36,694 nucleotides of DNA from Bacillota bacterium. GTDB lineage: Bacteria > Bacillota > UBA994. Shown here one piece after another: positions 8,849-36,110 of this stretch (position 1 is its first letter; each line of letters opens with the position of its first letter). The stretch covers positions 1-36,694 of the forward strand of contig WSXW01000025.1 in NCBI GenBank assembly GCA_009773495.1, in the 5' to 3' direction. Both the position numbers and the translations under genes were made by a program. Under the pieces are notes generated by a model. That model searched no databases. It was not told the origin of the DNA and saw only the letters and a program-made list of their open reading frames with translations.

Positions 8849-8995
8849 GCAAACATCGCTAGATGAGGCTGATGTCAGCTACACTGTTTGCCTACCGATA
8901 GCACCTAACGTCACGTATGACGACCTGGCACTTTTGGACCAGAGCGAGTAATGTACGCTTCTGATTGGCCCTACGGGTATAGGCTGCCATCAAAT
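8667..8995 (+). pseudogene. Amidohydrolase remnant (copy 2), frameshifted with internal deletions
   Basis: The frame opens with MPIIDVHSHLGDILYPNGGE (D-x-H-x-H metal motif) and stops at 8793, as in copy 1. Pieces of the same enzyme follow in shifted frames: GLNRTYGLGSLPYKVLGYWA near 8789-8848, then TSLDEADVSYTVCLPIAPN and VTYDDLALLDQSE to about 8951, then MYASDWPYGYRLPS at 8951-8992. The last resembles the C-terminal (Y/C)-x-S-D-W-P-(Y/F)-G metal/active-site loop of COG2159 amidohydrolases. Most of the barrel between the second and third piece is deleted. The enzyme is dead, but the pieces show what family the intact ancestor belonged to. Confidence 0.7.
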
Positions 8996-9102
8996 GGATA
9001 CCAGGCTCCAGGGGCTAGGTCAGTCGCTCCTTCAGTGCCCTCAGTGACTTCAGTGGTTCAAATGTTTCGGAATCTAGCCCATCGAGAGTTTGGAGTTGAA
9101 TT

Positions 9103-9894
9103 ATGCAACCCTGGCTTAATGACCTACTTGTTCCAACTGCCCAGGCTCTGTGTCCTAACGCACAGGGTGTGCTCGATTTTACTGGCGGTGAACAGCTTTG
9201 GTCATCTATTGACCTCCGAATGCTAGATGACGAGGATTGGATTGCTCGCAACTGGCAGTTAGAGCGGGAGCATGCTTTGCATCAGCCCGCGCGACAACGT
9301 ATATGCGAAGCAGCCATCAGCACCGGGGGCCCAATTCTAGAGATTGCGGCTGGGCCAGGTGGTGGCAATCTATCGCCCTTGCTACATCTGGAGCCAGAGA
9401 TAAAAATAATAGTAAATGACCTTGAGTTCCGCATAGTTGAACGGTGGCAGCACTTTTTGGGCGACCGTTATTCTAATGTGGCTTTCGCTGCCTTTGATGC
9501 CAGCATGATTCCCCTGAAAGACAATTCCATGGGCTGTGTGTCATCACGAGGGGGGATAAGCAACTGCCGAGGCGATAGCAACGCTGTGCTCAGCGAGTGT
9601 GCTCGCGTGTTAAGACCAGGTGGGCTTCTCGTACTATATGAGATGTGTTTGTCACCGCGCACAGTCGCAAGCCTGCCTCAAGTCTTGCGTGAGGCGTGGG
9701 TTGTGAGCCCCTGGGTTTATGGTGATTGGGGAGATTTGCTCACCCGCCACAGCTTGGCCTTACTATCTGAAGATGTCGCGGAACGCACCACAGTCAGTCC
9801 GGAGGAAAGTGCCCTAGCCTACGACGCGGCTCAATTTGGCGTAGTGCTGGAGATAGAGTTTAGGGCTGTGATTGCCGTTTGGCAAACCGTATAG
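9103..9894 (+). CDS. Class I SAM-dependent methyltransferase
   Basis: This 263-residue protein has the Rossmann-type methyltransferase core. Motif I is ILEIAAGPGGGNLSPLL at about 78-94 (SAM binding). An acidic strand-2 residue lies in IIVNDLEF near 107. A motif-III-like segment is FAAFDASMIPLKDNSMGCVS near 128-147, and the post-II segment is ARVLRPGGLLVLYEM near 167-182. The start is ATG at 9103 with TTTGGAGTT upstream. The substrate cannot be told. The N-terminal 70 residues (WLNDLLVP, then VLDFTGGEQLWSSIDLRML) are not part of the core and may contact the substrate. It stands alone between the amidohydrolase debris and the gntR promoter, and no terminator is visible after it. Confidence 0.8.
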   Translation: MQPWLNDLLVPTAQALCPNAQGVLDFTGGEQLWSSIDLRMLDDEDWIARNWQLEREHALHQPARQRICEAAISTGGPILEIAAGPGGGNLSPLLHLEPEIKIIVNDLEFRIVERWQHFLGDRYSNVAFAAFDASMIPLKDNSMGCVSSRGGISNCRGDSNAVLSECARVLRPGGLLVLYEMCLSPRTVASLPQVLREAWVVSPWVYGDWGDLLTRHSLALLSEDVAERTTVSPEESALAYDAAQFGVVLEIEFRAVIAVWQTV

Positions 9895-9935
9895 GTATGC
9901 GGTATCTTTTTTAGGATATTTAGATCAGGTTCTGC

Positions 9936-9963
9936 TTGCACTGTAATTAATACAATGTATAAT
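9936..9963 (+). promoter_or_regulatory. Promoter of the gntR-type gene, with a 14-bp palindrome at the start site
   Basis: TTGCAC (9936-9941) and TATAAT (9958-9963) are 16 bp apart. The expected start of transcription, near 9970, falls in the perfect palindrome TGATATTAATATCA (9967-9980), a plausible operator. Because the -10 overlaps the ATG at 9962, that ATG cannot be the start codon of the gene made from this promoter. Confidence 0.6.
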
Positions 9964-10021
9964 GTATGATATTAATATCACATTGCCAGAGACTTGTTCT
10001 AACACTAGGGGGGAACCAGCA

Positions 10022-10714
10022 TTGAAGAAAGTATCGCCAGCATCATTGCGAGAGCAACTCTACGAATCAATTATGGATGCGATCCTGACCAACCAGTATC
10101 ATCCCGGAGAGGTATTACAGATTGACAAATTGGCAAATGATTTTGGTGTAAGTACCACTCCTGTAAGAGAAGCGCTGGTGAGGCTCGAAGGGACCGGTCT
10201 AGTCAAGTTGATGCCCAACAAGGGAGCCCAGGTAACTGCTGTAAGTAGCCAGGACGTCTCAGATATCTGGGAGGTCCGTATGATACTGGAGCCATACGCG
10301 GCTCGGTTAGCTGCTAAGACAGCTCATGAGTATGAAATGCAAGCAATGCGCAGTCGATTGCAGTACGTGTTAAATACACCTGAGGATTTCTCTAGTTACC
10401 TACAATCGGATTTAGAACTACATGGGCTACTTGCTAAACATTTAACTAATAGAGTTCTACTAGACATTCTAGAAAAATTAGGCAGGCATTATACCCGTAT
10501 ACGGTATTTCGCGGAAAGTGACCCCGTTGCTGGTCGTACCGATGTTATTAGGCAGGTTACTAGCGAGCATCTAACTATAGTAGAGTCACTTTTGACACGA
10601 AACGCCGATGGCACTGCATCAGCAGTCCTCGAACACTTGCGTAACGGTGAGAGACGCACTCTAGACGCGCTAGCTAGGCGGCAGCAAAATGGACACCTCA
10701 GTCTTCACATCTAA
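10022..10714 (+). CDS. GntR-family regulator, FadR/FCD subfamily
   Basis: The protein has about 230 residues. The N-terminal winged helix (SLREQLYESIMDAILTNQYH, then PGEVLQIDKLANDFGVSTTP and VREALVRLEGTGLV) is the GntR DNA-binding domain. The C-terminal helical FCD domain (VSDIWEVRMILEPYAARLAA, DLELHGLLAKH and VTSEHLTIVESLL) usually binds a carboxylic acid through Asp and His ligands and a metal. The start is taken as TTG at 10022, which has AGGGGGGA eight bases upstream; the in-frame ATG at 9962 overlaps the promoter. A strong terminator follows, so it is transcribed separately from the kor operon 290 bases downstream, which it most likely controls. The effector would then be an operon substrate such as a 2-oxoacid or amino acid. 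Confidence 0.88.
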   Translation: MKKVSPASLREQLYESIMDAILTNQYHPGEVLQIDKLANDFGVSTTPVREALVRLEGTGLVKLMPNKGAQVTAVSSQDVSDIWEVRMILEPYAARLAAKTAHEYEMQAMRSRLQYVLNTPEDFSSYLQSDLELHGLLAKHLTNRVLLDILEKLGRHYTRIRYFAESDPVAGRTDVIRQVTSEHLTIVESLLTRNADGTASAVLEHLRNGERRTLDALARRQQNGHLSLHI

Positions 10715-10725
10715 GGCCTCGGTTG

Positions 10726-10773
10726 ATAAAAGGGCAGGTATGACGATAAGTCATGCTTGCCCTTTTATTAATT
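10726..10773 (+). terminator. Terminator after the gntR-type gene
   Basis: The stem ATAAAAGGGCAGGTATGAC (10726-10744) pairs with GTCATGCTTGCCCTTTTAT (10750-10768), with two imperfect positions and a GATAA loop. It ends in a TTTTATTA stretch. It separates gntR from the kor promoter. Confidence 0.8.
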
Positions 10774-10813
10774 GCTACGTCTTAACATATAAAAGCATGA
10801 TGCACAGTGTATT

Positions 10814-10855
10814 ATATATTATATATTGACTGACAATATATAATATATGTATAAT
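10814..10855 (+). promoter_or_regulatory. kor operon promoter with overlapping 15-bp inverted repeat (probable operator)
   Basis: A near-consensus promoter has TTGACT at 10826-10831 and TATAAT at 10850-10855, 18 bp apart. A perfect 15-bp inverted repeat, ATATATTATATATTG (10814-10828) and CAATATATAATATAT (10834-10848), with spacer ACTGA, covers the -35 and spacer. A repressor bound there would block RNA polymerase. The centre ATTG-ACTGA-CAAT is the most specific part, since the outer arms are simple AT. The adjacent GntR/FCD protein is the obvious candidate to bind it. Confidence 0.7.
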
Positions 10856-11004
10856 GAAAAGGGGGAAAGGGCTTTTATAATTTGGTTAACATAGAGTGCA
10901 GTTAAGAAGAGAGATTATTATTACTGCCGATGAGGGGCCTATTCGTAACTTTGCCTCTAGCGTTGACCGTTGTTTCATCACAAGAATTGAGAGGAGTGAA
11001 AAAC

Positions 11005-12162
11005 ATGACTGCAGACGGGCAGAGGCAAAACTCACGAGTGCTTTCAGGTGTCCACTTTATGCTAGGCAATTACGCGACGGTAGAAGGTGCTTTGGCTGCA
11101 GGGTGTGACTTTTTTGCTGGTTATCCAATAACACCAGCAAACGAAATTTCTGAACGTATGGCTGAACGCTTACCGCAGGTAGGCGGCAAGTTTATACAAG
11201 GCGAAGACGAGCTGTGCTCGATCTACGCTATTGCGGCTGCATCTTTAGCTGGTGCTAAGGCCATGACCGCCACCGCAAGTGCGGGATACAACTATTATCA
11301 AGAGGGTATCGAGTATGCAGTGGCCGTTGAGGCTCCCTGTGTAATCGTAAACGTACAGCGGTGTCGCGGCGAGAATTTCGCCACACAGGCAGATATCATG
11401 CAAATGCGTTGGGGTGCAGCAGGTGACCACGAAATGATCGTTTTGGCCCCATCTTCGGTGCAAGAGTTGTTTGACTACACGGTGAGAGCTTTTAACCTAG
11501 CAGAGCAGTTCCGCAACCCGGTAATAGTGGCTTCGGAGACAACTATTGCTCTGATGCGCGAGAGGTTAGAGATTCCTGGTGCCGACCGCATCCCGGTTCT
11601 TAATCGCAAGTACACAGACTTAGGTCCAGACAAATACAAGACATTTGATGCTCCTGAAAACGGTGTGCCAGATTTCTCACCCTTAGGCAAGGGCTATCAT
11701 GGCCTCTACACTATCAACCCTCATGACATCGATGGCAGCATTGAGTGGGATCCAATTGTGTATGAGAAGTTGTATAAGCGTATTACTGGAAAGATCAGCG
11801 AGAATGAGCACATCATCTCTCATACTGAGTCCTTCCAGCTAGATGACGCAGATATTGCCCTTGTAACCTACGGTAGCGAAGTTCGCCCTACCCTCGACGC
11901 TATGGAGCTAGCTAGAAACTCTGGCCTGAAGGTCGGCGTGCTCAAGCTAGGTACCGTATGGCCTGTGCCTGAAACTAGAATTCGTGAGGTAGCTAAGCAG
12001 ATGAAAGCCGTGATTACCGTAGAAATGAGCATCGGCAAGTACGCTGGTGAGGTTGAGCGGGTAGTTGCTGGTCGTTGTGTAACCGCTCGCGCTACTAAGA
12101 ATCGTGGTATTGGGCACACAGCAGAAGAGATTCTTGAGGTCATAAAGGGGGTTAGGGCATGA
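11005..12162 (+). CDS. korA: 2-oxoacid:ferredoxin oxidoreductase, alpha subunit
   Basis: The product has 385 residues. It is the pyrimidine-binding/core subunit of a 2-oxoglutarate-type ferredoxin oxidoreductase, which converts a 2-oxoacid and CoA to acyl-CoA and CO2 while reducing ferredoxin. Seen here: GNYATVEGALAAGCDFFAGY, then PITPANEISERM (pyrimidine domain), GEDELCSIYAIAAASLAGAK, TATASAGYNYYQEGIEYAV, and a C-terminal transketolase-like domain (ALVTYGSEVRPTLDAM, GVLKLGTVWPVPE). No fused gamma domain is present, and none is needed because korC is separate. The start ATG at 11005 has GAGAGGAG upstream; an in-frame ATG at 10930 lacks a ribosome site. The stop overlaps the korB start (ATGA). 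The 5' leader is about 140 bases. Confidence 0.93.
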   Translation: MTADGQRQNSRVLSGVHFMLGNYATVEGALAAGCDFFAGYPITPANEISERMAERLPQVGGKFIQGEDELCSIYAIAAASLAGAKAMTATASAGYNYYQEGIEYAVAVEAPCVIVNVQRCRGENFATQADIMQMRWGAAGDHEMIVLAPSSVQELFDYTVRAFNLAEQFRNPVIVASETTIALMRERLEIPGADRIPVLNRKYTDLGPDKYKTFDAPENGVPDFSPLGKGYHGLYTINPHDIDGSIEWDPIVYEKLYKRITGKISENEHIISHTESFQLDDADIALVTYGSEVRPTLDAMELARNSGLKVGVLKLGTVWPVPETRIREVAKQMKAVITVEMSIGKYAGEVERVVAGRCVTARATKNRGIGHTAEEILEVIKGVRA

Positions 12163-12974
12163 GCCAGATGATTAATGCACAAAGACGGCATATTCGCTAC
12201 GGAAAACTGCCGCACTTCTTCTGCCCTGGCTGTGGTGACGGTCAGGTTCTAAACTTCTTCTTGCGCGCCATCGATGAACTTGGCATGAATCTAGAAGATA
12301 TGGTCGCCATCGGCGGCGTAGGTTGCACTGCACGTATACCTGTGTACCTTAACACAGACACCCTCCACGGCGTACACGGCCGTACCTTGCCTTGGGCCAT
12401 GGGTATTAAGCTTCATAAGCCGGAAATTCCGGTTGTTATATTTGCAGGTGATGGTGATGCAGCCTCAATTGGAGGCAATCACTTAATTCATGCTGCTCGC
12501 AGAAATCTCGATGTGACCATGATCGTAGTTAATAACCTTAACTTCGCAATGACTGGTGGCCAAGTTGCGCCAACAACACCAGCTAAGTTTGTCACCATGA
12601 CTACGCCTTACGGCAGTGGGGAGCCCCCGTTTGACATTTGTGAAGTAGCTCTTGCTGCCGGTGCGACGCATGTGAGTCGTAGTACTACTTCTAGGGGTCC
12701 ACAGACAATTAAAGCCATTAAGAAGGGGCTGCAGCACAGAGGTTTCTCATTGGTAGAGATTATATCCCAGTGTCCGACACATTTTGGCCGCTATGCCTTA
12801 GGCAGTGGCAAGCCAGAGGTAAACATTGAGTTTATCGACGATAATAGCGTGACTATAGCCGAGGCCAAGAACATGACTAAAGACGAACTGCGCGGCAAGT
12901 TCGTGATTGGCGAATTCATTGACGAACAGAAGCCAGTATTTGCTGGCAGCTCCGTCTACGAAGTGGAGGAGTAA
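12159..12974 (+). CDS. korB: 2-oxoacid:ferredoxin oxidoreductase, beta subunit
   Basis: This 271-residue thiamine-diphosphate and iron-sulfur subunit is partner of KorA. Visible features: HFFCPGCGDGQVLNFFL (first two cluster Cys), GGVGCTARIPVYLNTDTLHG (third Cys), VIFAGDGDAASIGGNHLIHA with VNNLNFAMTGGQ (the GDG...NN diphosphate-binding motif), and EIISQCPTHFGR (fourth Cys). All four Cys expected to hold the proximal 4Fe-4S cluster are present. HGVHGRTLPWAMGIKL is the usual active-site loop. It is translationally coupled to korA by a 4-base overlap and followed after 2 bases by korC. The subunit style (Kor/Vor rather than pyruvate enzyme) is clear; the preferred 2-oxoacid cannot be read from sequence. 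Confidence 0.93.
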   Translation: MSQMINAQRRHIRYGKLPHFFCPGCGDGQVLNFFLRAIDELGMNLEDMVAIGGVGCTARIPVYLNTDTLHGVHGRTLPWAMGIKLHKPEIPVVIFAGDGDAASIGGNHLIHAARRNLDVTMIVVNNLNFAMTGGQVAPTTPAKFVTMTTPYGSGEPPFDICEVALAAGATHVSRSTTSRGPQTIKAIKKGLQHRGFSLVEIISQCPTHFGRYALGSGKPEVNIEFIDDNSVTIAEAKNMTKDELRGKFVIGEFIDEQKPVFAGSSVYEVEE

Positions 12975-12976
12975 GA

Positions 12977-13522
12977 ATGAAAACTCTCAACATCGGCATT
13001 TGTGGCTTTGGTGGCCAAGGTGTAATACTGTCAGCCGTCATCCTCGGTACAACTGTAGTTACTAAGCGCAATATGTACGCGGTTCAGACTCAATCCTATG
13101 GTTCTGAAGCGCGAGGGGGACAGTGCCAATCTGAACTTGTTATCTCTGAGGGTCCGATTAACTCGCCCACAGCAGACAAGAAGGATATTCTAATCGCACT
13201 GTCTCAGCCTTCTTTGGAAAGGTATCTACCAACCCTAAAAGCGGGTGGTATTCTCATTGTTGATCCTAAGACTGTAACTGAAATCCCCACCGATGTTAAG
13301 GTAGTACAAGTCTCTGCCACTGATACTGCAGTGAATTTAGGCAACAGAATTGCTGCTAACATGGTTCTACTCGGTTTTATACAGGCGGCAACGAACCTCT
13401 TTAGCATAGAAGAACTGCTTGATGTTGTTAAGGACTATGTGCCGGCACGCTTTATTGACCTCAACTTAGCTGCTGTTCACGCTGGCGTGGAATTAGCTAA
13501 GAGTTACGGAGGTACTTTCTAG
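12977..13522 (+). CDS. korC: 2-oxoacid:ferredoxin oxidoreductase, gamma subunit
   Basis: The product has 181 residues and the POR_N/gamma fold: NIGICGFGGQGVILSAVILG (glycine-rich nucleotide/CoA-side loop), TQSYGSEARGGQCQSELVIS (the conserved S-Y-G-x-E-x-R-G-G motif of gamma subunits), and ILIALSQPSLERYLPTLKAG. It completes the catalytic trimer with KorA and KorB. It begins 2 bases after korB (GTGGAGGAG lies inside the korB end as ribosome site) and its stop is directly followed by the sucC-type ATG. Confidence 0.93.
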   Translation: MKTLNIGICGFGGQGVILSAVILGTTVVTKRNMYAVQTQSYGSEARGGQCQSELVISEGPINSPTADKKDILIALSQPSLERYLPTLKAGGILIVDPKTVTEIPTDVKVVQVSATDTAVNLGNRIAANMVLLGFIQAATNLFSIEELLDVVKDYVPARFIDLNLAAVHAGVELAKSYGGTF

Positions 13523-14659
13523 ATGAAGTTATTCGAATTTCAGGGCAAACGCCTGTTTAAGGAATTTGGGATTGCAGTTCCTGAAGGTACAGTGTTTACA
13601 GCGTCTCAACCGTTGCTGGAAAGCATGGCTGCACCAAAGGTTCTTAAGGCGCAGGTCTTAGCGGGTGGCCGTGGAAAGTCGGGTGGAATCAAGGTTGTTC
13701 GCTCCGGCGTAATCGATCAAGAGGCACTTAACGGGCTCTTTACTCAGATCATCGAGGATGAACCTGTGCAGGCTGTTTTGATAGAGGACATGGCCAATAT
13801 ACTGCAAGAGTTCTATTTATCTATGACTTTCTTAGGTTCTCTGGCAACCCCGGTGCTCATCGCTTGCCCCGCTGGCGGCATGGACATTGAAGAAGTAGCC
13901 CATAACACACCGGAGAAAATCCTTAGGATTCATCTGAATCCCTTGACCGGTCCTTCGGATTACCAAGTTAGAACTATTGCTAAAGAGTTTGGTTTGAAGA
14001 GCAGTAAAGAGCTCGCTCACATTATTAACCAATTATGGAAGATGTTCCGTCACTATGAGGCGAGCCTAGTAGAGATAAATCCGCTCGCCCTGACTAGCGA
14101 CGGCCTAATGGCTCTTGACGCCAAAGTCGTCCTAGATGAGAAAGCTGCTTTTCGCCACACTGCCGCCTACAACGCATTGTTGGCAGAGCAGGAGGATATC
14201 CTGCAGACCGGCGAAGAAGTATCATCCACCAAAGGTGACACCATCACTTATGTTCCACTAGATGGTACCGTGGGTCTAATCTCTGATGGTGCTGGGACAG
14301 GTATGTTGACCCTAGATCTGATTAAAGATTCCGGAGGAAACGCAGCTAACTTCTGCGAGATGGGCGGTCTGACTAGCCCCGAGGTTATGTACAAAGCCAT
14401 GGAAATAGTAATGGCTAACCTAGATATAAAAAGCCTGCTGGTGGTATTGATCGGTGGTTTTAACCGCATGGATGACATGGCCGAAGGCATCATCCGTTAC
14501 AGACAAGATCATGGTATGCGCGTTCCTATGGTAGTGCGCATGTGCGGCACCATGGAGGAAGTGGGCAAAGAGATGATGCGCCAGGCTGATATCCCCACTT
14601 ATGAAGATTTAATTGAGGCAGTGCGGAATGCTGTTTCCCTAGCCGGAGGTAACGCATAA
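13523..14659 (+). CDS. sucC: ADP-forming acyl-CoA synthetase, beta subunit (SucC family)
   Basis: The protein has 378 residues, close to the usual 385-390 of SucC. The ATP-grasp N-terminus begins MKLFEFQGKRLFKEFGIAVP and has KAQVLAGGRGKSGGIKVV at about 43-60; many SucC proteins have His where this has Leu (KAQVHAGGRGK). GGMDIEEVAHNTPEKI lies near 117-132, EINPLALTSDGLMALDAKVV near 180-199 (metal/nucleotide site), and the CoA-ligase domain is near 245-378, with DGAGTGMLTLDLI and GGFNRMDDMAEGII. Together with SucD it makes ATP from an acyl-CoA, ADP and phosphate. Sitting between korC and sucD, it should use the acyl-CoA made by KorABCD. Whether that is succinyl-CoA or another acyl-CoA is open. 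It starts immediately after korC and overlaps sucD by one base. Confidence 0.88.
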   Translation: MKLFEFQGKRLFKEFGIAVPEGTVFTASQPLLESMAAPKVLKAQVLAGGRGKSGGIKVVRSGVIDQEALNGLFTQIIEDEPVQAVLIEDMANILQEFYLSMTFLGSLATPVLIACPAGGMDIEEVAHNTPEKILRIHLNPLTGPSDYQVRTIAKEFGLKSSKELAHIINQLWKMFRHYEASLVEINPLALTSDGLMALDAKVVLDEKAAFRHTAAYNALLAEQEDILQTGEEVSSTKGDTITYVPLDGTVGLISDGAGTGMLTLDLIKDSGGNAANFCEMGGLTSPEVMYKAMEIVMANLDIKSLLVVLIGGFNRMDDMAEGIIRYRQDHGMRVPMVVRMCGTMEEVGKEMMRQADIPTYEDLIEAVRNAVSLAGGNA

Positions 14660-15531
14660 TGGCTATTCTGATTAATGAAAACACACAGATCCTCATCCAG
14701 GGGATAACTGGTAAGTCCGGTGCTCTACAAGCCAAGGTGATGAAGCAATATGGCACTAAGGTTGTGGCGGGAGTCACACCTGGCAGGGGTGGCCAAGAAG
14801 TTGAGGGGGTACCTGTATACGATTTGGTTAGTGAAGCCGTAAGGGCCCACCGCATTGATGCAGCTATTAGTTTTGTTCCAGCTGTTTTTGCCAAGGACTC
14901 TTGTATGGAGATATTCGATGTCGGCATTAAGTTTCTGGTTCTCACTACTGAAGGTATTACAGACCATGACATGGTTGATATCGTGGCTTATGCGCGTACT
15001 AAGGGTGCCCGTATTTTAGGACCTGGTACTGCTGGCCTAATTTCTCCAGGTAAGAGCAAGGCAGGAGCTCATCCACCGCGTATGTACACGGAAGGACGCG
15101 TGGGAGTTATTTCCAAAAGTGGCGCTCTCTCTTATGAGGTTGGCAAGAACCTAACCGAGGCCGGTATCGGCCAATCCACTGTTCTCTCAGTGGGTGGAGG
15201 TCCAGTTTGGGGCATGACGCAAAAAGATGTCGTCGAATTATTCCAAGCTGACCCAGAAACAGAAATCATAGTTCTACTGGGTGAAATTGGCGGAACCATG
15301 GAAGAGGAAGCCGCCGAGTATATTACGAATCACCTGAATAAGCCAGTGGTGACGATGATTGTTGGGAGGGCCGCTCCCGTAGGTAAATCGCTGGGTCATG
15401 CAGGTGCCATTATTGAAGGCAACAAGGGCACGGCTGCTGCAAAGCTCGAGCTACTACAGAAGGCTGGGGCGCGGATTGCGTCGTCGCCACGTGAGATCAT
15501 TCAGATTATCAAAGAGATGAGGGGGGAGTAA
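14659..15531 (+). CDS. sucD: ADP-forming acyl-CoA synthetase, alpha subunit (SucD family)
   Basis: This 290-residue protein has the SucD layout: a CoA-binding Rossmann domain (NTQILIQGITGKSGALQAK, VVAGVTPGRGGQEVEGVPVY) and a ligase domain with the phosphorylated histidine in GKSLGHAGAIIEGNKGTAAA. GEIGGTMEEEAAEYI is also typical. Two normally very conserved stretches differ. The usual GIMPG-H region reads GAHPPRMYTEG, and the usual GGDP-(I/V)-x-G reads SVGGGPVWGMTQKDVV. These may mean a different acyl substrate from succinate; I infer this and cannot prove it. The start overlaps the last base of sucC, and the korD start follows within 2 bases. Confidence 0.88.
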   Translation: MAILINENTQILIQGITGKSGALQAKVMKQYGTKVVAGVTPGRGGQEVEGVPVYDLVSEAVRAHRIDAAISFVPAVFAKDSCMEIFDVGIKFLVLTTEGITDHDMVDIVAYARTKGARILGPGTAGLISPGKSKAGAHPPRMYTEGRVGVISKSGALSYEVGKNLTEAGIGQSTVLSVGGGPVWGMTQKDVVELFQADPETEIIVLLGEIGGTMEEEAAEYITNHLNKPVVTMIVGRAAPVGKSLGHAGAIIEGNKGTAAAKLELLQKAGARIASSPREIIQIIKEMRGE

Positions 15532-15532
15532 G

Positions 15533-15745
15533 GTGACTGTACACATTGATACACCTTTGTGCAAAGGCTGTGCCCTCTGTGCCCGTTATTGTCCACGCGA
15601 CGTACTAGTTATGACCGAAGTAACTAACCGTAAGGGTTTTAATGTGGTTGGTGTGATTAACCCCGAGAATTGCATTAACTGCAGGTTGTGCGAAATGTAC
15701 TGCCCCGACTTGGCAATTGCCATTGAGGTCCCTGCTAAAAAGTAA
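15533..15745 (+). CDS. korD: 2-oxoacid:ferredoxin oxidoreductase, delta subunit (2x4Fe-4S ferredoxin)
   Basis: This 70-residue protein has two complete 4Fe-4S motifs, CKGCALCARYCP (near 10-21) and CINCRLCEMYCP (near 44-55), each followed by short beta structure. It carries electrons from the KorAB active site to free ferredoxin. The start is GTG at 15533, with GGGGGGAG upstream inside sucD. Its placement after sucD, rather than next to korABC, supports the idea that oxidoreductase and acyl-CoA ligase are made together as one functional unit. Confidence 0.92.
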   Translation: MTVHIDTPLCKGCALCARYCPRDVLVMTEVTNRKGFNVVGVINPENCINCRLCEMYCPDLAIAIEVPAKK

Positions 15746-15769
15746 ATTTAGTTTACAGGAGGTCGTAAA

Positions 15770-16738
15770 ATGCCAGTTACACTTAAAGACGTGCAAGTAG
15801 CTGCCGAGAGAATCCGGGAGCACGTTAAGCATACACCGCTGGTAAGGGCTGAAAAGCTAGACGAGAAGCTCGGCTGCCAAGTGTACTTCAAGCCAGAGTG
15901 CTTACAGGTAACCGGCTCCTTTAAACTACGTGGTGCAACAAACAAGATCCTTTCTCTTTCCGACAAGGATAGAGCTAAGGGAGTTATTGCTTCTTCCTCT
16001 GGCAACCACGCTCAAGGTGTGGCCTATGCAGCCCGTGCTCTTGATGTAAAAGCGACATTGGTTCTGCCTGTAAATGCTCCTAAGTCTAAGATTGAAGGAA
16101 CAAAGGCTTTCGGTGCAGAGGTAGTACTACACGGTTACGATTCCATCCAAAGATACGAAAAGCTTTACGAGATCCAGGCAGAAAAAGGCTACACCTTGGT
16201 ACATTCCTACAATGATCCTCAACTGATTGCAGGGCAAGGTACCGTTGGCTACGAGATCATGCAAGACCTTTCGGATGTAGATGTAGTAGTTGTTCCCCTG
16301 GGTGGCGGCGGTATACTCGCCGGTGTGGCTGTGGCACTAAAAGAGACAAACCCCAATGTAAGGGTAATCGGAGTTGAGCCAGCAGCTATCCCTAGGTACT
16401 CTGCGAGCCGTAAGGCGGGCAAGCCTGTAGAAGTACCCATGCAGGACACTTTAGCTGACGGTCTTATGATTACTAAGACTGGTGACAACACGTACCCGCT
16501 CATAGAGAAGTATGTAGATGAGATCGTTTCTGTTTCTGACGATCATATCTATCCAGCGTTGTGCGAGATTCTGTTCAAGACCAAATTGCTGGTTGAACCT
16601 TCCGCTGCTATTGGGGTGGCCGCGGCATTGGCGGGGCTTATTAGCTTTAGGCCCGAGGAGAAAGTTTGCTTTGTTCTTACCGGTGGCAACATTGACCCTG
16701 ATCGACTGATTAAGGTAGTAGCGCAAAGCATTATGTAG
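15770..16738 (+). CDS. tdcB: Threonine ammonia-lyase, catabolic type
   Basis: The product has 322 residues and the fold-type II PLP fold. The Schiff-base lysine is K52 in TGSFKLRGATNKI. SSSGNHAQGVAYAAR near 74-88 binds the substrate carboxylate, and GGGGILAGVAVAL near 176 binds the PLP phosphate. It lacks the C-terminal ACT-type regulatory domain of biosynthetic IlvA (about 510 residues), so it fits the short catabolic form. It turns threonine (or serine) into 2-oxobutyrate (or pyruvate) and ammonia. 2-Oxobutyrate is a natural substrate for the KorABCD enzyme encoded upstream, which would give propionyl-CoA. A strong CAGGAGG precedes the ATG, 24 bases after korD. Related serine/threonine dehydratases or racemases share these motifs. 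Confidence 0.85.
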   Translation: MPVTLKDVQVAAERIREHVKHTPLVRAEKLDEKLGCQVYFKPECLQVTGSFKLRGATNKILSLSDKDRAKGVIASSSGNHAQGVAYAARALDVKATLVLPVNAPKSKIEGTKAFGAEVVLHGYDSIQRYEKLYEIQAEKGYTLVHSYNDPQLIAGQGTVGYEIMQDLSDVDVVVVPLGGGGILAGVAVALKETNPNVRVIGVEPAAIPRYSASRKAGKPVEVPMQDTLADGLMITKTGDNTYPLIEKYVDEIVSVSDDHIYPALCEILFKTKLLVEPSAAIGVAAALAGLISFRPEEKVCFVLTGGNIDPDRLIKVVAQSIM

Positions 16739-16768
16739 ATAACCGCTGTGAGTAAAGGGGGAATAAGA

Positions 16769-17941
16769 ATGGTTAAGAAACAAGCCCATAAAATGGAGAA
16801 CGTGCCCTTCTCATCTATTCGCAAGGTCTTTGCTGAAGTAGACAAGCTTAAGGCACAGGGCAAGGACATCATTAGCCTAGGCATAGGCGAGCCGGATTTT
16901 CACACACCAAGGCATATTACCGAGGCCCTAGCAGAGGCAGCTCGCCGTGGCGAAACCCATTATACGCCTAATAAGGGTATTGCGCAGCTACGCGAGGCCA
17001 TTGTAGCGAAGATCCGCAAGGATGCTGGTGTGGAGTACGACAGCGAGGAAATTATCTGTACCGTTGGTGGAACGGAAGGAGTCTATGTTGCTCTGACGAG
17101 TTTTCTCGATCCAGGGGATGAAGTATTGGTTCCCGATCCAGCCTGGCTCAACTACGTCCATGTCCCTACTATGAATGGGGCAACTGCTGTCTCTTATCAG
17201 CTCAGGGACGAGAGCAACTTCCAGATCGACGTTGATGCTATGCGTAAGCTGATTACAGAGCACACCACAATGTTAGTGTTGATTGATCCTAGCAATCCTA
17301 CCGGAGGAGTTCAGTCCTACGAAACCCTAGAGAGAGTTGCCCAACTTGCTGTGGAACATGACCTGCTGGTAGTCACTGACGAAATGTACGAACAATTGAT
17401 ATTCTCTGGGGCCAAGCATACCAGTATCGCGTCCTTCCCAGGCATGCGAGAAAGAACCATCATGCTCAATGGGTTCTCCAAGTCTTATGCTATGACAGGA
17501 TGGCGCCTAGGGTACATTGCTGCACCGCTAGAGCTAATCCAAGTAATGACTAGAACTCACATGTACACGGTTACACACACTGCATCGATGGTGCAGTGGG
17601 CCGGGCTGGTAGCTTTACAAGGGTCGCAAGATTGTGTGTGCGACATGGTAGCAGAGTTCGAGCGCCGGCGTAACTTTATGCTTGAAGCTGTTAGGAACAT
17701 GAAGGGGTTTAAATGCAACAAGCCCGATGGAGCCTTTTATCTCTTCCCGGAGGTTAGCGGGACAGGCATGACAGGTGAGGAACTAACCAAGTTTCTCTTG
17801 ACTGAAGCCGGAGTTGCTGTTGTTCCCGGCACTGCCTTTGGCGCCTATGGCAAGTACCACATCAGGATCTCGTTTGCTACGTCATTTGAGCGACTAGAAA
17901 AAGCTGCTGAGAGAATGAAGTCGGCTCTAAATAAACTATAG
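16769..17941 (+). CDS. Class I/II PLP aminotransferase (aspartate aminotransferase-like)
   Basis: The product has 390 residues. Fold-type I features: ISLGIGEPDFHTPRHITEAL near 35-54, HYTPNKGIAQLREAIV near 69-84, VLIDPSNPTGG near 170 (PLP/substrate), DEMYEQLIF near 200, the Schiff-base lysine in MLNGFSKSYAMTGWRLGY near 230-247, and the C-terminal arginine in YHIRISFATS. It moves an amino group between an amino acid and a 2-oxoacid, commonly with glutamate/2-oxoglutarate. The ATG at 16769 is chosen because AAAGGGGG precedes it; an in-frame GTG at 16748 lies upstream of that site. In this operon it would feed 2-oxoacids to KorABCD. Sequence does not fix which amino acid is used. Confidence 0.87.
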   Translation: MVKKQAHKMENVPFSSIRKVFAEVDKLKAQGKDIISLGIGEPDFHTPRHITEALAEAARRGETHYTPNKGIAQLREAIVAKIRKDAGVEYDSEEIICTVGGTEGVYVALTSFLDPGDEVLVPDPAWLNYVHVPTMNGATAVSYQLRDESNFQIDVDAMRKLITEHTTMLVLIDPSNPTGGVQSYETLERVAQLAVEHDLLVVTDEMYEQLIFSGAKHTSIASFPGMRERTIMLNGFSKSYAMTGWRLGYIAAPLELIQVMTRTHMYTVTHTASMVQWAGLVALQGSQDCVCDMVAEFERRRNFMLEAVRNMKGFKCNKPDGAFYLFPEVSGTGMTGEELTKFLLTEAGVAVVPGTAFGAYGKYHIRISFATSFERLEKAAERMKSALNKL

Positions 17942-17953
17942 GAGGTGCAACAT

Positions 17954-19909
17954 TTGGAAACCGAACCGAAGAAGCTTATAACAGAAGCTACTCCTGATGG
18001 TGAAGCCCTAATTCGGGAAAAAGACCGTGAGTCGGACTACAGAAATAAGCTAGATAAGCATTGGAAAAAAATCGTTGCCGTAATCTCTTGTGTTTACATT
18101 GCCTACCATATGTACACATCGCGCATGGGAATGCCAGAAATCGTTAAGCATCGTGCCATCCACGTAGGTTTTATCCTCATACTAGTCTGGCTTTACTATC
18201 CTGCAACAAAGAAATCCCCTAAGAATAAACCAACTCCATTAGACTTAGGTCTGGTGGTAGCAACTGTAATTATGGTCGGCTACACATATCTTACACGAGA
18301 TGCTTTTGCACTACGCGGTGGTGTAGCGTTGCCGATGGATTATGTCATGGGTGCCATCGCCTTTGTATTGCTTCTTGAGTCTTGCCGCCGTGTGGTAGGG
18401 CCTCAGCTACTAATCCTAGTGCTGGTATTCCTGCTCTATGCGTGGGGCGGAAGTTTTGTACCTGGGGTGCTCTCACATCGCGGTTACAGCATACAGCGCA
18501 TTATCTATCAGAACTATTTAACTACCGGAGGAATATGGGGGCAGCCCATAGGGGTTTCGGCCACCTACCTTATTATTTTTATCGTCCTTGGGTCGGTCTT
18601 GGAGAAGAGTGGACTCGGTCAATTGTTTAATGACTTAGCCATGGCTGCGAGTGGCCGCATGGTTGGTGGACCTGCTAAGGTGGCTGTAGTTTCTAGCGCC
18701 TTGGTGGGTATGATCAGCGGCAGCGCTGCTAGTAACGTCGCTACCACGGGGGCCTTTACGATCCCTTTAATGAAGCGCGTTGGTTACAAGCCTTATTTTG
18801 CAGGCGCAATTGAAGCGGCAGCCTCTACAGGTGGTCAGTTTATGCCCCCGATTATGGGTTCGGTTGCATTTATCATGGCAGAATTCATCGGTGTTCCTTA
18901 CCTAACAATAGCTGCTGCCGCGGTTATCCCTGCCCTGCTGTACTTCGCGGGTGTGTTCTTCCAGATTGACCTGCGTGCCCGTCGTATGGGACTTAAAGGT
19001 TTGGACGACTCCGATATTCCCGATGCATGGGATACAGTGAAGAAATACGGTCATATGATCATTCCTATGTTTGTGCTAGTCTACCTGCTCTATATCGGTC
19101 GCACCCCTCTTTATGCCGCATTCTACACGGTTGTTTATACCGTTGCTCTCTCCTGGGTGCGCAAAGAGACTCGCATAGGGCTCAAAGAGCTCGTGACAGT
19201 CTGTGTCGCCTCAGCTCGAAGCAGTCTGGCCATTGGTGTGGCCATGGCTAATGCCGGTTTCGTGGTAGCGGTTCTTTCTATGACCGGTATTGGTATTATC
19301 TTAGCTGACAATATCGTGGCACTCTCTGGTGGTAACCTGATGGTTGCGTTAATCCTCTGTATGGTTGTTTCCATCATCTTAGGTATGGGTCTCCCAACTA
19401 CCGCCTGTTACGTCATTTCATCATCTATAGCAGTACCCATTCTGAGACAGATGGGTGTTCCAGTATTCCAAGCTCACTTCTTCGTGCTTTACTTTGCGTG
19501 TCTTTCAACGATAACGCCTCCCGTAGCGCTAGCAGCCTATGTTGGTGCCGGTATGGCTGGGGCAGATACCAACCAAGTAGGGTGGACAGCCTTTAAGCTA
19601 GCTCTTGCAGGTTTTATTGTTCCCTTCTTCTTTATCTACTCTCCGGCAATGCTTCTCATAGGTTCTAGCAACGGGATTGCATGGGCAGCGATCACCGGGT
19701 TGATTGGAACGGGCTTACTGGCTGTAACAGTTGAAGGTTTCTTGTTCATTGACCTGCCAATTTGGCTGCGTGCCCTCTTCATGGGAGCTGCAATAAATCT
19801 CATGGCTCCGGGCACCTTTAGCGATGCTATCGGTGCTGGATTAGCCGTCGTTGCCCTGCTGTGTGTCTATTTACTACGTCAAAGACACCAAAAAGCGCTC
19901 GTCGTTTAG
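17954..19909 (+). CDS. TRAP transporter fused small/large permease (DctQM-type)
   Basis: This integral membrane protein has about 651 residues. A charged N-terminus of about 40 residues is followed by four membrane segments (for example IVAVISCVYIAYHMY, AIHVGFILILVWLYY, DYVMGAIAFVLLLESC) corresponding to the small DctQ subunit. The large DctM-type permease follows, with PIGVSATYLIIFIVLGSVLE, AASGRMVGGPAKVAVVSSAL with SGSAASNVATTGAFTIPLMK, EAAASTGGQFMPPIMGSVAF, and ILGMGLPTTACYVISSSIAV. These last segments are the signature of 4TM/12TM TRAP fusions that work with TAXI binding proteins, using a Na+ or H+ gradient. The start is TTG at 17954, with AGGAGGTG seven bases upstream; it follows the aminotransferase by 12 bases. 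Confidence 0.9.
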   Translation: METEPKKLITEATPDGEALIREKDRESDYRNKLDKHWKKIVAVISCVYIAYHMYTSRMGMPEIVKHRAIHVGFILILVWLYYPATKKSPKNKPTPLDLGLVVATVIMVGYTYLTRDAFALRGGVALPMDYVMGAIAFVLLLESCRRVVGPQLLILVLVFLLYAWGGSFVPGVLSHRGYSIQRIIYQNYLTTGGIWGQPIGVSATYLIIFIVLGSVLEKSGLGQLFNDLAMAASGRMVGGPAKVAVVSSALVGMISGSAASNVATTGAFTIPLMKRVGYKPYFAGAIEAAASTGGQFMPPIMGSVAFIMAEFIGVPYLTIAAAAVIPALLYFAGVFFQIDLRARRMGLKGLDDSDIPDAWDTVKKYGHMIIPMFVLVYLLYIGRTPLYAAFYTVVYTVALSWVRKETRIGLKELVTVCVASARSSLAIGVAMANAGFVVAVLSMTGIGIILADNIVALSGGNLMVALILCMVVSIILGMGLPTTACYVISSSIAVPILRQMGVPVFQAHFFVLYFACLSTITPPVALAAYVGAGMAGADTNQVGWTAFKLALAGFIVPFFFIYSPAMLLIGSSNGIAWAAITGLIGTGLLAVTVEGFLFIDLPIWLRALFMGAAINLMAPGTFSDAIGAGLAVVALLCVYLLRQRHQKALVV

Positions 19910-19999
19910 GCAATAAGGTAGTTCAGATTTTTGGGGAGCGCACTATCCGTAAGCTATTTTGACGCCCCCAAAATAAGAAAATAAAAGGAGGTCAATTGA

Positions 20000-21007
20000 A
20001 TGTCACAGGGGTTAAAGAAATCTGCGTTGTTCGCTCTGATTCTGGTAATCGCTATGGTCGCTGTAGCATGTGCACCCAAAGCCCCGGTCACTCCGGGAAC
20101 GACAACCCCGCCTAAGACTGTCCATATTACTATGGGTACAGCTGGTGTAGGTGGCACCAACTATCCGCTTGGTATCGCTATGGCTTCCCTTTGGAATGCA
20201 AATATTCCCGGAGTTAAAGCAGTTGCTATTGCTACTGCAGGTTCGCCAAATAACATTGACCTGCTCCGTCAAAAAGAAGCTGAAGTTGCTGTATGCCGCT
20301 CACTTGAGGCTTACCGCGCCACAAACGGTATTGCGCCGTATCCAGAAAAGATGCCTTGGCTTCGCTCGATCACAGGTGGCTTGTTTGTTGACGCAATGCA
20401 AGTCGTGGGCGTAAACGGTAAGGTTAAAAGCATCTCAGAATTTAAGGGCAAGAGAATAGGCGTAGGTCCTATCGGTAGCGGTAGCGAAGTAGACGCCCGT
20501 GAGATTATTAAGGCTCATAATATGATTTACGAGGATATGCAAATCTTCTACGTTGAGCCTGCTCAAGCCATTGAAATGATTGACGATGGTTTGCTTGACG
20601 GTGCCGTTGTTGGAGTTGCTCTCGGTTCTGCTGCCATTCAAGAGTTGATGCTTGGCGGACACGTTACACTACTGCCGATAGAAGACGAGTTCTTTGCTAA
20701 TCTCAAGGCTGCTAACGAATTACTTGTGCGAACTACTATCCCGGCTAACCTCTATCCTAAGCAAGATTACACTGTAAAGACGGCCGCTGCTCCTCCAGAT
20801 ATTATTATCGCTCGTGCTGATCTGGATGAAGAACTCGCTTACAACATGACTAAGACACTCTATGAAAACCTCAACGCTATACACAATGTAGCTGTTCTTC
20901 TCCAGCAATTTACTTCTAACCTCGTTCTTCCAGAGAAGGATATGCTCATCCCTTACCATCCTGGTACCAAGAAATACTTCCAAGAGAAGGGTTGGTTACC
21001 TAAGTAA
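20000..21007 (+). CDS. TAXI-family TRAP transporter solute-binding lipoprotein
   Basis: The product has 335 residues. A lipoprotein signal (KKSALFALILVIAMVAVAC) has its lipobox Cys at residue 24, followed by a PTPGTTTPPK-type linker. The mature part begins VHITMGTAGVGGTNYPLGIA, the hallmark of TAXI (TRAP-associated extracytoplasmic immunogenic) proteins, followed by KEAEVAVCRSLEAYRATNG, FKGKRIGVGPIGSGSEVDAR and DGLLDGAVVGVALGSAAIQE. It captures the solute outside the membrane and hands it to the permease encoded just upstream. Characterised TAXI proteins bind glutamate or related acids, which fits the operon's 2-oxoacid enzymes, but this protein's ligand is unknown. AGGAGG precedes the ATG at 20000. 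A loose TTTTGGGG/CCCCAAAA hairpin lies in the 90-base gap before it. Confidence 0.92.
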   Translation: MSQGLKKSALFALILVIAMVAVACAPKAPVTPGTTTPPKTVHITMGTAGVGGTNYPLGIAMASLWNANIPGVKAVAIATAGSPNNIDLLRQKEAEVAVCRSLEAYRATNGIAPYPEKMPWLRSITGGLFVDAMQVVGVNGKVKSISEFKGKRIGVGPIGSGSEVDAREIIKAHNMIYEDMQIFYVEPAQAIEMIDDGLLDGAVVGVALGSAAIQELMLGGHVTLLPIEDEFFANLKAANELLVRTTIPANLYPKQDYTVKTAAAPPDIIIARADLDEELAYNMTKTLYENLNAIHNVAVLLQQFTSNLVLPEKDMLIPYHPGTKKYFQEKGWLPK

Positions 21008-21080
21008 ACCTCAACCAACTGCACCACAGTAATTCATCCTCGGTGGTGACCATGGCTAATACTTTGGAATAAAAAAAGGA

Positions 21081-21121
21081 AAAAGACCTCCGCTAGTACT
21101 TGTGGCTAGGGAGGTTTTTTG
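21081..21121 (+). terminator. Terminator at the end of the kor/TRAP operon
   Basis: ACCTCCGCTAG pairs with CTAGGGAGGT (one bulged base), with a loop of about 9 bases, followed by six T residues. It closes the operon after the TAXI gene. Confidence 0.9.
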
Positions 21122-21164
21122 CGCTGTGTTATGATTAGATGAGTTTAGGCTTGGAGGAGAGTAC

Positions 21165-22070: not shown

Positions 22071-22180
22071 ACCCGGGGTGCGGCACAATATGGAACCATT
22101 CAACCAAGGACTCACGGAAATCAGGGGAGTCGGGAGGTGGGGGCGTGGCTAGTAGGCATGAAAGTAAAGGAGGCTGGACA

Positions 22181-23764
22181 ATGCTCGATTTTATCGTTCG
22201 TAATGTGCAGATTGTGGATGGTACAGGTAGCCCTTGGTTTATAGGTGACGTAGGGGTGGCAGCTGGAAAGATAGTAAAAGTAGGCACTAACCTCACTGTT
22301 ACTGCCAAAGAGAAGATAGACGGCACTGGCCTGACTCTCACTCCCGGGTTTATCGACATTCACTCGCACTCCGATTTTTCCCTGCCCATTGATGGCAGCG
22401 CGGAGAGTCGGTTGCTACAAGGCGTTACCACCGAGATAGGCGGTAACTGTGGCCTTAGCCCCGCGCCTGTTGAACCGGAGCGTTTAGATATGCTTAAGAA
22501 GTATGCGGGATTCCTAACGCAAGACCTAGCGTGGGACTGGCGCTCCTTCGGAGAGTTCTTGACCGCTGTGGAAACAGCCCAGCCCGCAGTTAACTTCGCT
22601 TCTTTGGTTGGCCACGGTACCCTGAGAGTGGCCGCCATGGGGTTTGCTGATCGTCCACCGACAGAGCTGGAAATGAACCACATGAAGCGTTTGCTGTACG
22701 AGAGCATGGAGCAAGGTGCGCTAGGTGTCTCATCAGGGCTGATTTATCCCCCTGGCTGTTATTCAAATAGCGACGAATTAGCTGAGGTCGCTAGCGTAGT
22801 TGCGCCGTTTGGCGGTTACTATGAGACGCATATGCGTAACGAAGGTGATGACATCATTCAGTCTATTGAAGAAAGTGCCGAAGTGGGCCGCAAGGCCAAG
22901 GTTCCGGTGCAGATAGCTCATCATAAAGTAGTAGGTCGCTATAACTTTGGCAATAGTAAATATAGCCAAGCACGGATTATGGCGCTTCGTAGTGAGGGTA
23001 TAGATATTGTATGCGACCAATATCCTTATATCGCGGCTAGTACGACCATCACTACCATTTTTGCGCATTGGGCTCACGAAGGAGGGGTAGACGGCCTGTT
23101 GGCTCGCCTAATCAACCCCGAGACTAGAGCGCGAATTAAGTCAGAGGTTCTTAGCAATATGGATCGAACTGGGCGTCGTTTTGATGATATTCTTATTGCC
23201 GGGGTCAGTGGAGAGGCCAACAAGCGTTTCGAAGGGCTTACTGTCACAGAGGCGGCGGCCCAGGCCGGGAAAGAACCGTGTGATTTTGTGATGGATATAG
23301 TAGTGGAAGAGAAAGCAGGAGTAGCCGTGGTCACCTTTGGCATGGATGAGGCAGATGTCAAACACATTATGGTGGACCCTCTCACTATGATCGGCAGTGA
23401 TGGCATATCCGTACCCTTGGTTGGACCCGGCAAACCACATCCCCGCACATTTGGTACCTTCGTGCGCGTCCTGGCGAAATACGCTCTAGAGGATAAAATA
23501 TTCACTTTCGAGGAAGCTGTGCGTAAGATGACCTCGCTACCTGCATCCCGGGCGCGTCTATTGGAGCGGGGCCTAATTCGCCCTAGCTTTGCGGCTGACC
23601 TTGTACTGCTTAATCTCAATACACTTGCAGATAGGGCAACGTATGCCGATCCACGGCAAGCTCCCGCTGGAATTTGCAAAGTATGGGTCAACGGCCAATT
23701 GGCCGTAAGCGATGGTAAGATTGCTCCGACACGTGCAGGGCAGGTATTGCGTCTATGTAGATAA
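22181..23764 (+). CDS. N-acyl-D-amino-acid deacylase (D-aminoacylase family)
   Basis: This 527-residue protein belongs to the amidohydrolase superfamily. Features: DFIVRNVQIVDGTGSPWF at the N-terminus, the metal motif TPGFIDIHSHSD (H61, H63), the conserved Cys in TTEIGGNCGLSPAP (C90, a metal ligand in D-aminoacylases), YYETHMRNEGDDIIQSIEES near 220, PVQIAHHKVVG near 249, MIGSDGISVP near 407 (catalytic Asp) and ADLVLLNLNTLADRATYADP near 480. It hydrolyses N-acyl-D-amino acids to the free D-amino acid and a carboxylate, in the cytoplasm. The start at 22181 follows AAAGGAGG. It may supply amino acids to the catabolic operon upstream, though the two are separated by a terminator and one gene. Related enzymes act on dipeptides or hydantoins. 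Confidence 0.88.
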   Translation: MLDFIVRNVQIVDGTGSPWFIGDVGVAAGKIVKVGTNLTVTAKEKIDGTGLTLTPGFIDIHSHSDFSLPIDGSAESRLLQGVTTEIGGNCGLSPAPVEPERLDMLKKYAGFLTQDLAWDWRSFGEFLTAVETAQPAVNFASLVGHGTLRVAAMGFADRPPTELEMNHMKRLLYESMEQGALGVSSGLIYPPGCYSNSDELAEVASVVAPFGGYYETHMRNEGDDIIQSIEESAEVGRKAKVPVQIAHHKVVGRYNFGNSKYSQARIMALRSEGIDIVCDQYPYIAASTTITTIFAHWAHEGGVDGLLARLINPETRARIKSEVLSNMDRTGRRFDDILIAGVSGEANKRFEGLTVTEAAAQAGKEPCDFVMDIVVEEKAGVAVVTFGMDEADVKHIMVDPLTMIGSDGISVPLVGPGKPHPRTFGTFVRVLAKYALEDKIFTFEEAVRKMTSLPASRARLLERGLIRPSFAADLVLLNLNTLADRATYADPRQAPAGICKVWVNGQLAVSDGKIAPTRAGQVLRLCR

Positions 23765-30055: not shown

Positions 30056-30065
30056 GAGGATACAC

Positions 30066-30770: not shown

Positions 30771-30788
30771 TTAGAAGGAGTGAGAGCC

Positions 30789-33349: not shown

Positions 33350-33361
33350 GGGGTAGAGTTC

Positions 33362-34312: not shown

Positions 34313-34330
34313 GGGCTAGGGGGTGAGTTG

Positions 34331-36034: not shown

Positions 36035-36110
36035 CCTCGTTTGGTGCGGGATATTTATCAGGGTCTAGCGCAACCACGGGGGCGCAGTTCCAATGTCTAC
36101 CCAAGAGTAT

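Follow-up and report, generated by a model that had tools for sequence, protein, structure and literature searches.

The window considered here is a stretch of 36,694 nucleotides, contig WSXW01000025.1 of a Bacillota bacterium (GenBank assembly GCA_009773495.1), and the element in question is an operon of ten genes that includes those for a 2-oxoacid:ferredoxin oxidoreductase (OFOR) and an ADP-forming acyl-CoA ligase. The genes, all open frames on the forward strand that match the families for which they are named, encode in order a KorA-like OFOR alpha subunit (11005..12162), a KorB-like beta subunit with a TPP domain (12159..12974), a KorC-like gamma subunit (12977..13522), a SucC-like beta subunit of the ligase belonging to a divergent clade (13523..14659), a SucD-like alpha subunit that retains a GHAGAI motif (14659..15531), a KorD-like ferredoxin subunit with two CxxCxxCxxxC motifs and a GTG start (15533..15745), a PALP-family enzyme, either an ammonia-lyase or a racemase (15770..16738), a class I aminotransferase (16748..17941; 66% identical to its counterpart in the sister locus L051), a fused TRAP permease (17945..19909) and a TAXI-family solute-binding protein (20000..21007). 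The frames from korA to korD overlap or are at most 2 bp apart, and the gaps that follow are 24 bp between korD and the PALP gene, then 9 bp and 3 bp, and 90 bp between the TRAP and TAXI genes. The OFOR and ligase genes are adjacent on the same strand, with sucCD lying inside the kor set before korD.

A sigma-70-type promoter, TTGACT-18-TATAAT (10826..10855, forward strand), with 11 of 12 matches, is the top site of the region, though the number of promoter-like sites in the scan is at chance level (16 against 16.1 in shuffles). At the other end, a terminator hairpin with a terminal run of T (21081..21120, forward strand; fold of 21070-21130: -21.2 kcal/mol, z -3.25) was found by folding and was not picked up by the terminator pattern scan. 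In the gap between the TRAP and TAXI genes, folding was no better than chance (z -0.33). Upstream of the promoter lies a GntR/FCD regulator gene (9962..10714, forward strand; Pfam FCD and GntR), probably a local regulator on a separate transcript, with a strong terminator-like hairpin on its 3' side (10720..10775, forward strand; fold of 10710-10790: -42 kcal/mol, z -9.1). The list and order of ten genes on one strand between one promoter and one terminator, as given in a preliminary description of the locus, are therefore borne out. However, the base from which that description counted the operon, 10022, falls within the GntR/FCD gene and not in korA. A longer korA frame opens at 10930, but 11005 appears the better start, as it has GGAG upstream and gives a frame similar in length to the homologous ones.

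Analysed loci carry L-numbers and genomes G-numbers below, and a locus with this type of kor-sucCD set is referred to as a module. A SucC profile (A1), built from the window and L004-L007, matched in 169 of 398 genomes from the phylum of the window, four standing apart at 655.6, 570.2, 569.1 and 553.5 bits, with the next at 329.4 bits. No match to the profile was present in any of seven relatives from the same family as the window. The module was detected in one of 248 genomes from the class of a Spirochaetia metagenome-assembled genome (MAG), namely the MAG itself, in one of 4 from the family of this spirochaete and in two of 148 from the family of G400 (G400 and the new G1117), and three of 8 genomes in family f23 scored above 550 bits. 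These draws of genomes overlap, that of the G400 phylum having returned G400 and three matches already in the 398-genome draw, which were not recounted. The module was thus found in nine genomes, those of the window, a Clostridia MAG (L004), the Spirochaetia MAG (L005/L069/L070), Ruminococcaceae bacterium D5 (L006/L071), Yanshouia hominis (L007), and G295, G201, G272 and G1117, the last four of which did not contribute to the profile. The carriers include two Oscillospiraceae and one Spirochaetia MAG, and the core spans two phyla. A related-locus scan was of low sensitivity, its 46 pattern matches yielding 7 loci.

The korC, sucC and sucD genes are adjacent in 9 of 9 module loci, and korD directly follows sucD in all 8 in which the sequence continues. 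Given this recurrence, the korC-sucC-sucD-korD arrangement, which the preliminary description had remarked on in the window, is more than chance. The korA, korB and korC genes are contiguous in the window, L006, L007, L052 and L068, and a GntR gene lies near the kor genes in the window, L052, L068, L069, L071, L007 and L135. At the Spirochaetia locus, nine genes separate korA-korB from korC and encode two DctP-type binding proteins, DctQ, a DctM-like permease, a carbon-nitrogen hydrolase, an M29-like peptidase, an aldehyde:ferredoxin oxidoreductase, a small iron-sulfur protein and an aminotransferase; in L069 the aldehyde:ferredoxin oxidoreductase and iron-sulfur protein genes occupy 9199-11142 and 8922-9209, respectively. 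A 9.1 kb contig of another carrier (L052, G201:C25) carries, next to the module kor-sucCD set, another korC-sucC-sucD that belongs to the ordinary clade.

Outside the module, kor-sucCD linkage was seen in 11 of 39 SucC regions, 9 of these 11 having korD in first place; the regions were hand-chosen from the 398-genome match list and weighted to multi-copy genomes, one (L102) having been picked for its known kor genes, and the fraction is therefore not an unbiased rate. The module type is rare, but kor-sucCD linkage as such is not. One genome, G034, holds three kor-sucCD loci (L072, L073 and L074), and L073 is a full korDABC-sucCD-TAXI-TRAP cluster with ordinary loops.

In a tree of 81 SucC sequences, the 9 from module loci form one clade (SH-aLRT 100) whose stem measures 1.15 changes per column, and other kor-linked SucC sequences are scattered over the tree (6 changes). 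Six ordinary SucC/SucD rows (L012, L013, L014, L016, L018 and L019) were not part of this tree, and the numbers of clade-specific columns, 9 in SucC and 12 in SucD, were unchanged when these rows were added. The GG(I/V)xxC motif of SucC is replaced by GGFNRM in the module, and GGD of SucD, in which D is present in 77 of 77 others, by GGG. The ATP-grasp and CoA-ligase domains are present, as is the GHAGAI motif of SucD, which we take to hold the active-site His. As judged by curated family models, SucC of the window lies below both cut-offs (327.8 against 370 for PRK00696 and 331.7 against 375.55 for TIGR01016); among the controls, SucC of Escherichia coli and L100 pass both and that of L087 passes PRK00696 only. 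SucD of the window exceeds the cut-off of PRK05678 (338.3 against 336) but not that of TIGR01019 (332.7 against 353.2).

The oxidoreductase is likewise set apart. Module sequences form single clades among both KorA (6 of 22 rows, support 100/100) and KorB (7 of 24 rows, support 99/96). Rows L081 and L079, copies of the window and L122, were removed before the trees were built, and the KorA tree includes the single-chain PFOR L080, for which a long-branch warning applies and which was left out of the motif count. A module-KorA profile, scoring at most 4 candidates per genome, gave three matches above 740 bits in the same 398 genomes (the window, G201 and G272), all with a module SucC, and the next was at 382 bits. 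In the fourth genome with a module SucC, G295, the contig ends inside korB.

The most conspicuous change in KorA follows the arginine that binds the substrate carboxylate, Arg344 in the Sulfolobus enzyme StOFOR, in which the loop residue Thr349, just after Arg344, lines the pocket (PMC5020499). This arginine and the YPITP motif (CPITP in the L052 row) are present in module KorA. In 6 of 6 module sequences, however, the segment beyond the arginine has the sequence QRCRGEN(F/Y)A and lacks the GPxxG loop; it is shorter by four residues than that of 15 of 15 others, all of which have a loop beginning with GP. In the window, CRGEN stands in place of GPxxG. The loop is also missing from a seventh module KorA (L126) and is of ordinary form in 8 of 8 next-best KorA sequences, 7 of them new, so that it is lost in 7 module KorA and kept in 22 distinct comparators. 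Among 5 solved relatives in the PDB, its length is ordinary in every one. In addition, TSGPG of other KorA (SSPG in VOR) is ASAG in the module, and KorB has 6 clade-specific columns, including Phe at position 129 in 7 of 7 module sequences against Tyr in 17 of 17 others.

KorA of the window narrowly misses the cut-off of PRK08659, a general 2-oxoacid:acceptor oxidoreductase alpha model (405.4 against 411), which 3 of 3 ordinary kor-linked KorA controls pass (514.7, 562.3 and 512.7). KorB and KorD of the window fall below the curated 2-oxoglutarate models (235.6 against 364 and 60.5 against 125); since 3 of 3 ordinary KorB also fall below (269.7, 329.1 and 302.3), the KorB result carries no information. 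Taken together, the clade-specific loops and columns of both enzymes suggest a changed acyl group common to Kor and SucCD. The two appear to have changed together around one acyl group, which is probably neither that of 2-oxoglutarate and succinyl-CoA nor a branched acyl group of the VOR type, and the substrate of KorABCD would thus be a 2-oxoacid other than 2-oxoglutarate.

The fused permease and the binding protein exceed the cut-offs of TIGR02123 (671.7 against 320.65; Pfam DctM is also matched) and TIGR02122 (218.4 against 84.35), respectively, and constitute a TAXI-TRAP transporter. The TAXI protein aligns over the whole mature protein with the glutamate-binding VcGluP, of which Tyr45, Gln93 and Glu125 are replaced by Asn, Arg and Asp. 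Tyr45 and Gln93 are the key glutamate determinants of VcGluP in the work on VcGluP and TtGluBP (PMC11574862). Given these replacements, the protein of the window, though of the same TAXI family, is unlikely to bind glutamate in the VcGluP manner.

Accessory genes were surveyed at E <= 1e-10 in 7 module, 14 other kor-sucCD and 30 no-kor SucC loci; L004, L024 and L135, on short contigs, were left out, and L052, which was included, ends at sucD. TAXI genes were found in 4, 4 and 0 of these loci, respectively, PF01177 racemase or DgcA-like genes in 5, 2 and 0, GntR genes in 6, 2 and 0, and fused TRAP genes in 4, 5 and 2. All kor-linked loci differ from no-kor loci by Fisher test in TAXI (p 0.0003), racemase (p 0.001) and GntR genes (p 0.0003), and module loci differ from other kor-linked loci in racemase genes (p 0.017). 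The co-occurrence that the preliminary description suggested looking for is seen for the core, which recurs in nine genomes, and in 4 of 7 module loci each for TAXI and fused TRAP genes, but not for the dehydratase-like PALP gene, found in the window alone of the 7 module loci.

Genes related to a D-aminoacylase (Dac) lie near kor-sucCD in the window, L071, L007, L070 and L074. The window gene encodes a D-aminoacylase-family amidohydrolase (22145..23764, forward strand; best PDB match a D-aminoacylase, E 4.2e-93), is perhaps functionally linked to the operon, and is preceded by a gene with no Pfam match; its best curated NCBIfam model is a general amidohydrolase subfamily, below the cut-off (161.8 against 340). 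In L071, one side of the core carries genes for an aminotransferase, an ArgE/DapE deacylase (253.1 against a cut-off of 217.6), an alanine-racemase-family protein (257.3 against 168), TAXI and TRAP, and the side after korD carries a Dac gene and a racemase gene. This racemase (223.1) and those of L007 (220.7) and L068 (236.6) exceed the cut-off of 190 of the CuyB cysteate-racemase model. The controls stay below this value, at 104.0 for YgeA of E. coli and 57.2 for the glutamate racemase of L100. At the Spirochaetia locus, the neighbours of Dac include DgcN- and DgcA-like genes, which do not reach the curated cut-offs (160.4 against 480 and 128.6 against 400); dgcN is described in PMC12363236 as having a key role in a pathway by which acidic D-amino acids are racemised. 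The racemases, N-acyl-amino-acid deacylases and DgcN/DgcA-like genes of sister loci point to acidic or N-acyl/D-amino acids as the substrates.

From the gene content and order, transcription signals, clade conservation, altered loops and accessory genes, we infer the substrate, the direction and each catalytic step as follows. The TAXI-TRAP transporter would import the substrate, and deacylase and racemase steps, catalysed by the product of the Dac-like gene at 22145 and perhaps by the PALP enzyme, or in sister loci by racemases, deacylases and DgcN/DgcA-like proteins, would yield an L-amino acid. The aminotransferase would convert this to a 2-oxoacid, KorABCD would catalyse its oxidative decarboxylation to an acyl-CoA with reduction of ferredoxin, and the SucCD-like ligase would release the free acid with formation of ATP, a plausible reaction that is known in kind. 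Acidic or D/N-acyl amino acids are the favoured candidate substrates, threonine is an unlikely one, and cysteate is the boldest. That the operon is an energy module for the catabolism of an acidic and/or N-acyl/D-amino acid, acting through a Kor and a SucCD with a jointly changed acyl group, is given a little under an even chance of being correct.

Several observations weigh against this interpretation. In StOFOR, mutation of Thr349 has little effect, and specificity was altered by mutating Lys49 and Leu123 of the beta subunit (PMC5020499). The equivalents of these two residues do not separate the module: all 7 module KorB have Arg at the first and Met at the second, as do 13 and 11, respectively, of the 17 others. 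Together with the KorB control result, this slightly lowers the standing of the catabolic energy module and slightly raises that of 2-oxoglutarate as the substrate. TAXI genes do not distinguish module loci from other kor-linked loci (p 0.35), and all the p values are only guides, as the loci are related and L071 and L007 are near-copies. The Dac gene of the window lies outside the operon, and among the 30 no-kor loci there are two with a partial Dac-like match (39%) and two with a weak match to TRAP (24%). Glutamate racemase genes are present in L051, L074 and L100 and may be housekeeping murI. Moreover, the type of racemase varies by locus (CuyB-like, glutamate, alanine/serine or DgcA-like), and a single common substrate is therefore not proved.

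The best-surviving alternative, though itself rather unlikely, is ordinary catabolism of glutamate via 2-oxoglutarate, with KorABCD as 2-oxoglutarate:ferredoxin oxidoreductase and SucCD as succinyl-CoA ligase giving succinate and ATP. The top family matches are indeed to KOR-type and SucCD models, KOR-SucCD clusters with TAXI-TRAP and ordinary loops exist (L073 and L087), the DgcN/DgcA-like genes of the spirochaete recall the acidic D-amino-acid pathway, L051 has a glutamate racemase, and most ordinary KorB share the residues at the two specificity positions. Against this, the TAXI protein is without both key glutamate residues of VcGluP, KorA and SucC of the window miss cut-offs that the ordinary KorA and most SucC controls pass, and the genome has a second KorB grouping with ordinary KORs (L082). 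It is the KorA comparison, with the GPxxG loop lost from every module sequence compared, that demotes a plain KOR-SucCD assignment.

A special case of the catabolic energy module is a sulfonate route, in which D/L-cysteate would be transaminated to 3-sulfopyruvate, converted by KorABCD to sulfoacetyl-CoA and by SucCD to sulfoacetate with formation of ATP. Its likelihood is low. The CuyB-passing racemases of three module loci and the altered loops of both enzymes are consistent with it, but these racemases, like YgeA, also pass a general amino-acid racemase model, and the three loci all belong to one bacterial family. No CuyB-like gene was found in the window in the accessory survey, and no genome search aimed at sulfonate genes was made. 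A ligase of the kind envisaged would be SauCD, presumably a relative of SucCD. SauCD of Bilophila wadsworthia is, according to PMC12890257, an ADP-forming CoA ligase for sulfoacetate, thus for an acid other than succinate, as is proposed for the module; it is described with sulfoacetaldehyde dehydrogenase and not with Kor, and is likened here to the module ligase by description. That KorABCD-SucCD forms a new kind of OFOR/ADP-forming ligase couple for an unusual acidic 2-oxoacid, 3-sulfopyruvate from cysteate above all, is correspondingly a long shot.

The Kor and SucCD reactions are reversible, and the operon might also run in reverse as an assimilatory 2-oxoacid synthase, an imported acid being converted to its acyl-CoA at the expense of ATP, carboxylated to a 2-oxoacid with reduced ferredoxin and aminated. 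TRAP ligands are mostly organic acids according to PMC11574862, which would suit this direction, but the deacylases, racemases and PALP gene fit catabolism better and make it improbable.

Least probable of all is conversion of threonine via 2-oxobutyrate and propionyl-CoA to propionate and ATP, the route envisaged in the preliminary description. The best PDB match of the PALP enzyme is a catabolic threonine dehydratase (E 1.4e-72), but the enzyme does not reach the NCBIfam threonine ammonia-lyase cut-offs (349.9 against 378.75 and 322.3 against 453; no control was scored), and sister loci have racemases and N-acyl deacylases. In the window, the PALP gene stands behind korD, at the position taken in L068 by the racemase gene. 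The residue before GNH, which we assume acts as the racemase base where it is Ser, is ambiguous, being Ser in the PALP enzyme, two serine racemases and 1ve5 (labelled threonine deaminase) and Ala in the dehydratases 2gn0 and 8y1j. As the PALP gene is seen in the window alone of the 7 module loci, the conserved core is independent of it, and threonine/propionate metabolism as the common function of the core was rejected.

Elsewhere in the genome, PF00549 matches only one separate 570-aa frame in addition to SucC and SucD of the operon. This third protein (L055, G000:C1:70000-82000), of about 560 aa, appears to us FdrA-like, and its gene lies in a run with a carbamate-kinase-like gene, possibly a cluster of the oxamate/purine type. 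POR-gamma is matched five times, one match lying next to the korB gene of L082 and another belonging to a VOR. This VOR (575.3 against a cut-off of 399) adjoins a PTA_PTB gene set between two acetate-kinase-family genes, and an acetate kinase is also encoded, so that the absence of an acyl kinase from the organism was considered and rejected. The VOR with PTA_PTB and kinases indicates that the conventional kinase route is also present, with the operon as a second, separate route. Hence, the proposal that a SucCD-type ligase takes the place of phosphotransacylase and acyl kinase stands for the operon but not for the genome, and that of a self-contained unit for import, 2-oxoacid oxidation and ATP formation is supported by the core in two phyla and by the few PF00549 matches, apart from its threonine, 2-oxobutyrate and propionyl-CoA steps. 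The remainder of the window includes genes at 28286-35254 that we read as a Tad/Flp pilus system (prepilin peptidase, TadE-like, CpaB, CpaE, CpaF and TadB/TadC-like) and, near its ends, what we take to be short integrase-like and transposase-like frames (7214-7822 and 35685-36068).

The module appears to be of a known kind, an OFOR with an ADP-forming acyl-CoA ligase, and a rare variant of it, distinguished by its clade, gene order and changed loops and by its association with deacylases and racemases. In amino-acid fermenters, gene clusters of an OFOR with either phosphotransacylase/kinase or an ADP-forming ligase have been described (Jiang et al. 2026, PMC13285125). These share with the operon the clustering of genes, the proposed path from amino acid to 2-oxoacid, to acyl-CoA with reduced ferredoxin, and to acid with ATP, and the ADP-forming ligase as an alternative to Pta/Ack. 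They are of the IOR and VOR types from Peptostreptococcales, whereas the operon has a KOR-like enzyme of a distinct clade, sucCD before korD, TAXI-TRAP and, in sister loci, deacylases and racemases. Ordinary kor-sucCD clusters (such as L073, L074, L087, L093 and L100) also have kor beside sucCD, some with TAXI-TRAP, GntR, Dac or racemase genes. However, their SucC and Kor are of other clades with the GPxxG loop retained, and korD comes first (between korB and korC in L087; all kor genes follow sucCD in L115) and not after sucD as in the module. No published description of the operon was found among the matches listed in the open-licence PMC literature, which is no proof of absence.

For a small, conserved and scattered set of enzymes in anaerobes of two phyla, the automatic names KOR, succinyl-CoA ligase and threonine dehydratase may therefore be wrong as to substrate. 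The module offers a case of how an oxidoreductase and a ligase may change acyl group together, and a possible missing route for the anaerobic use of D-, N-acyl- or sulfonated amino acids. If the cysteate route were true, anaerobes including Yanshouia hominis would oxidise D/L-cysteate to sulfoacetate, gaining ATP and reduced ferredoxin.

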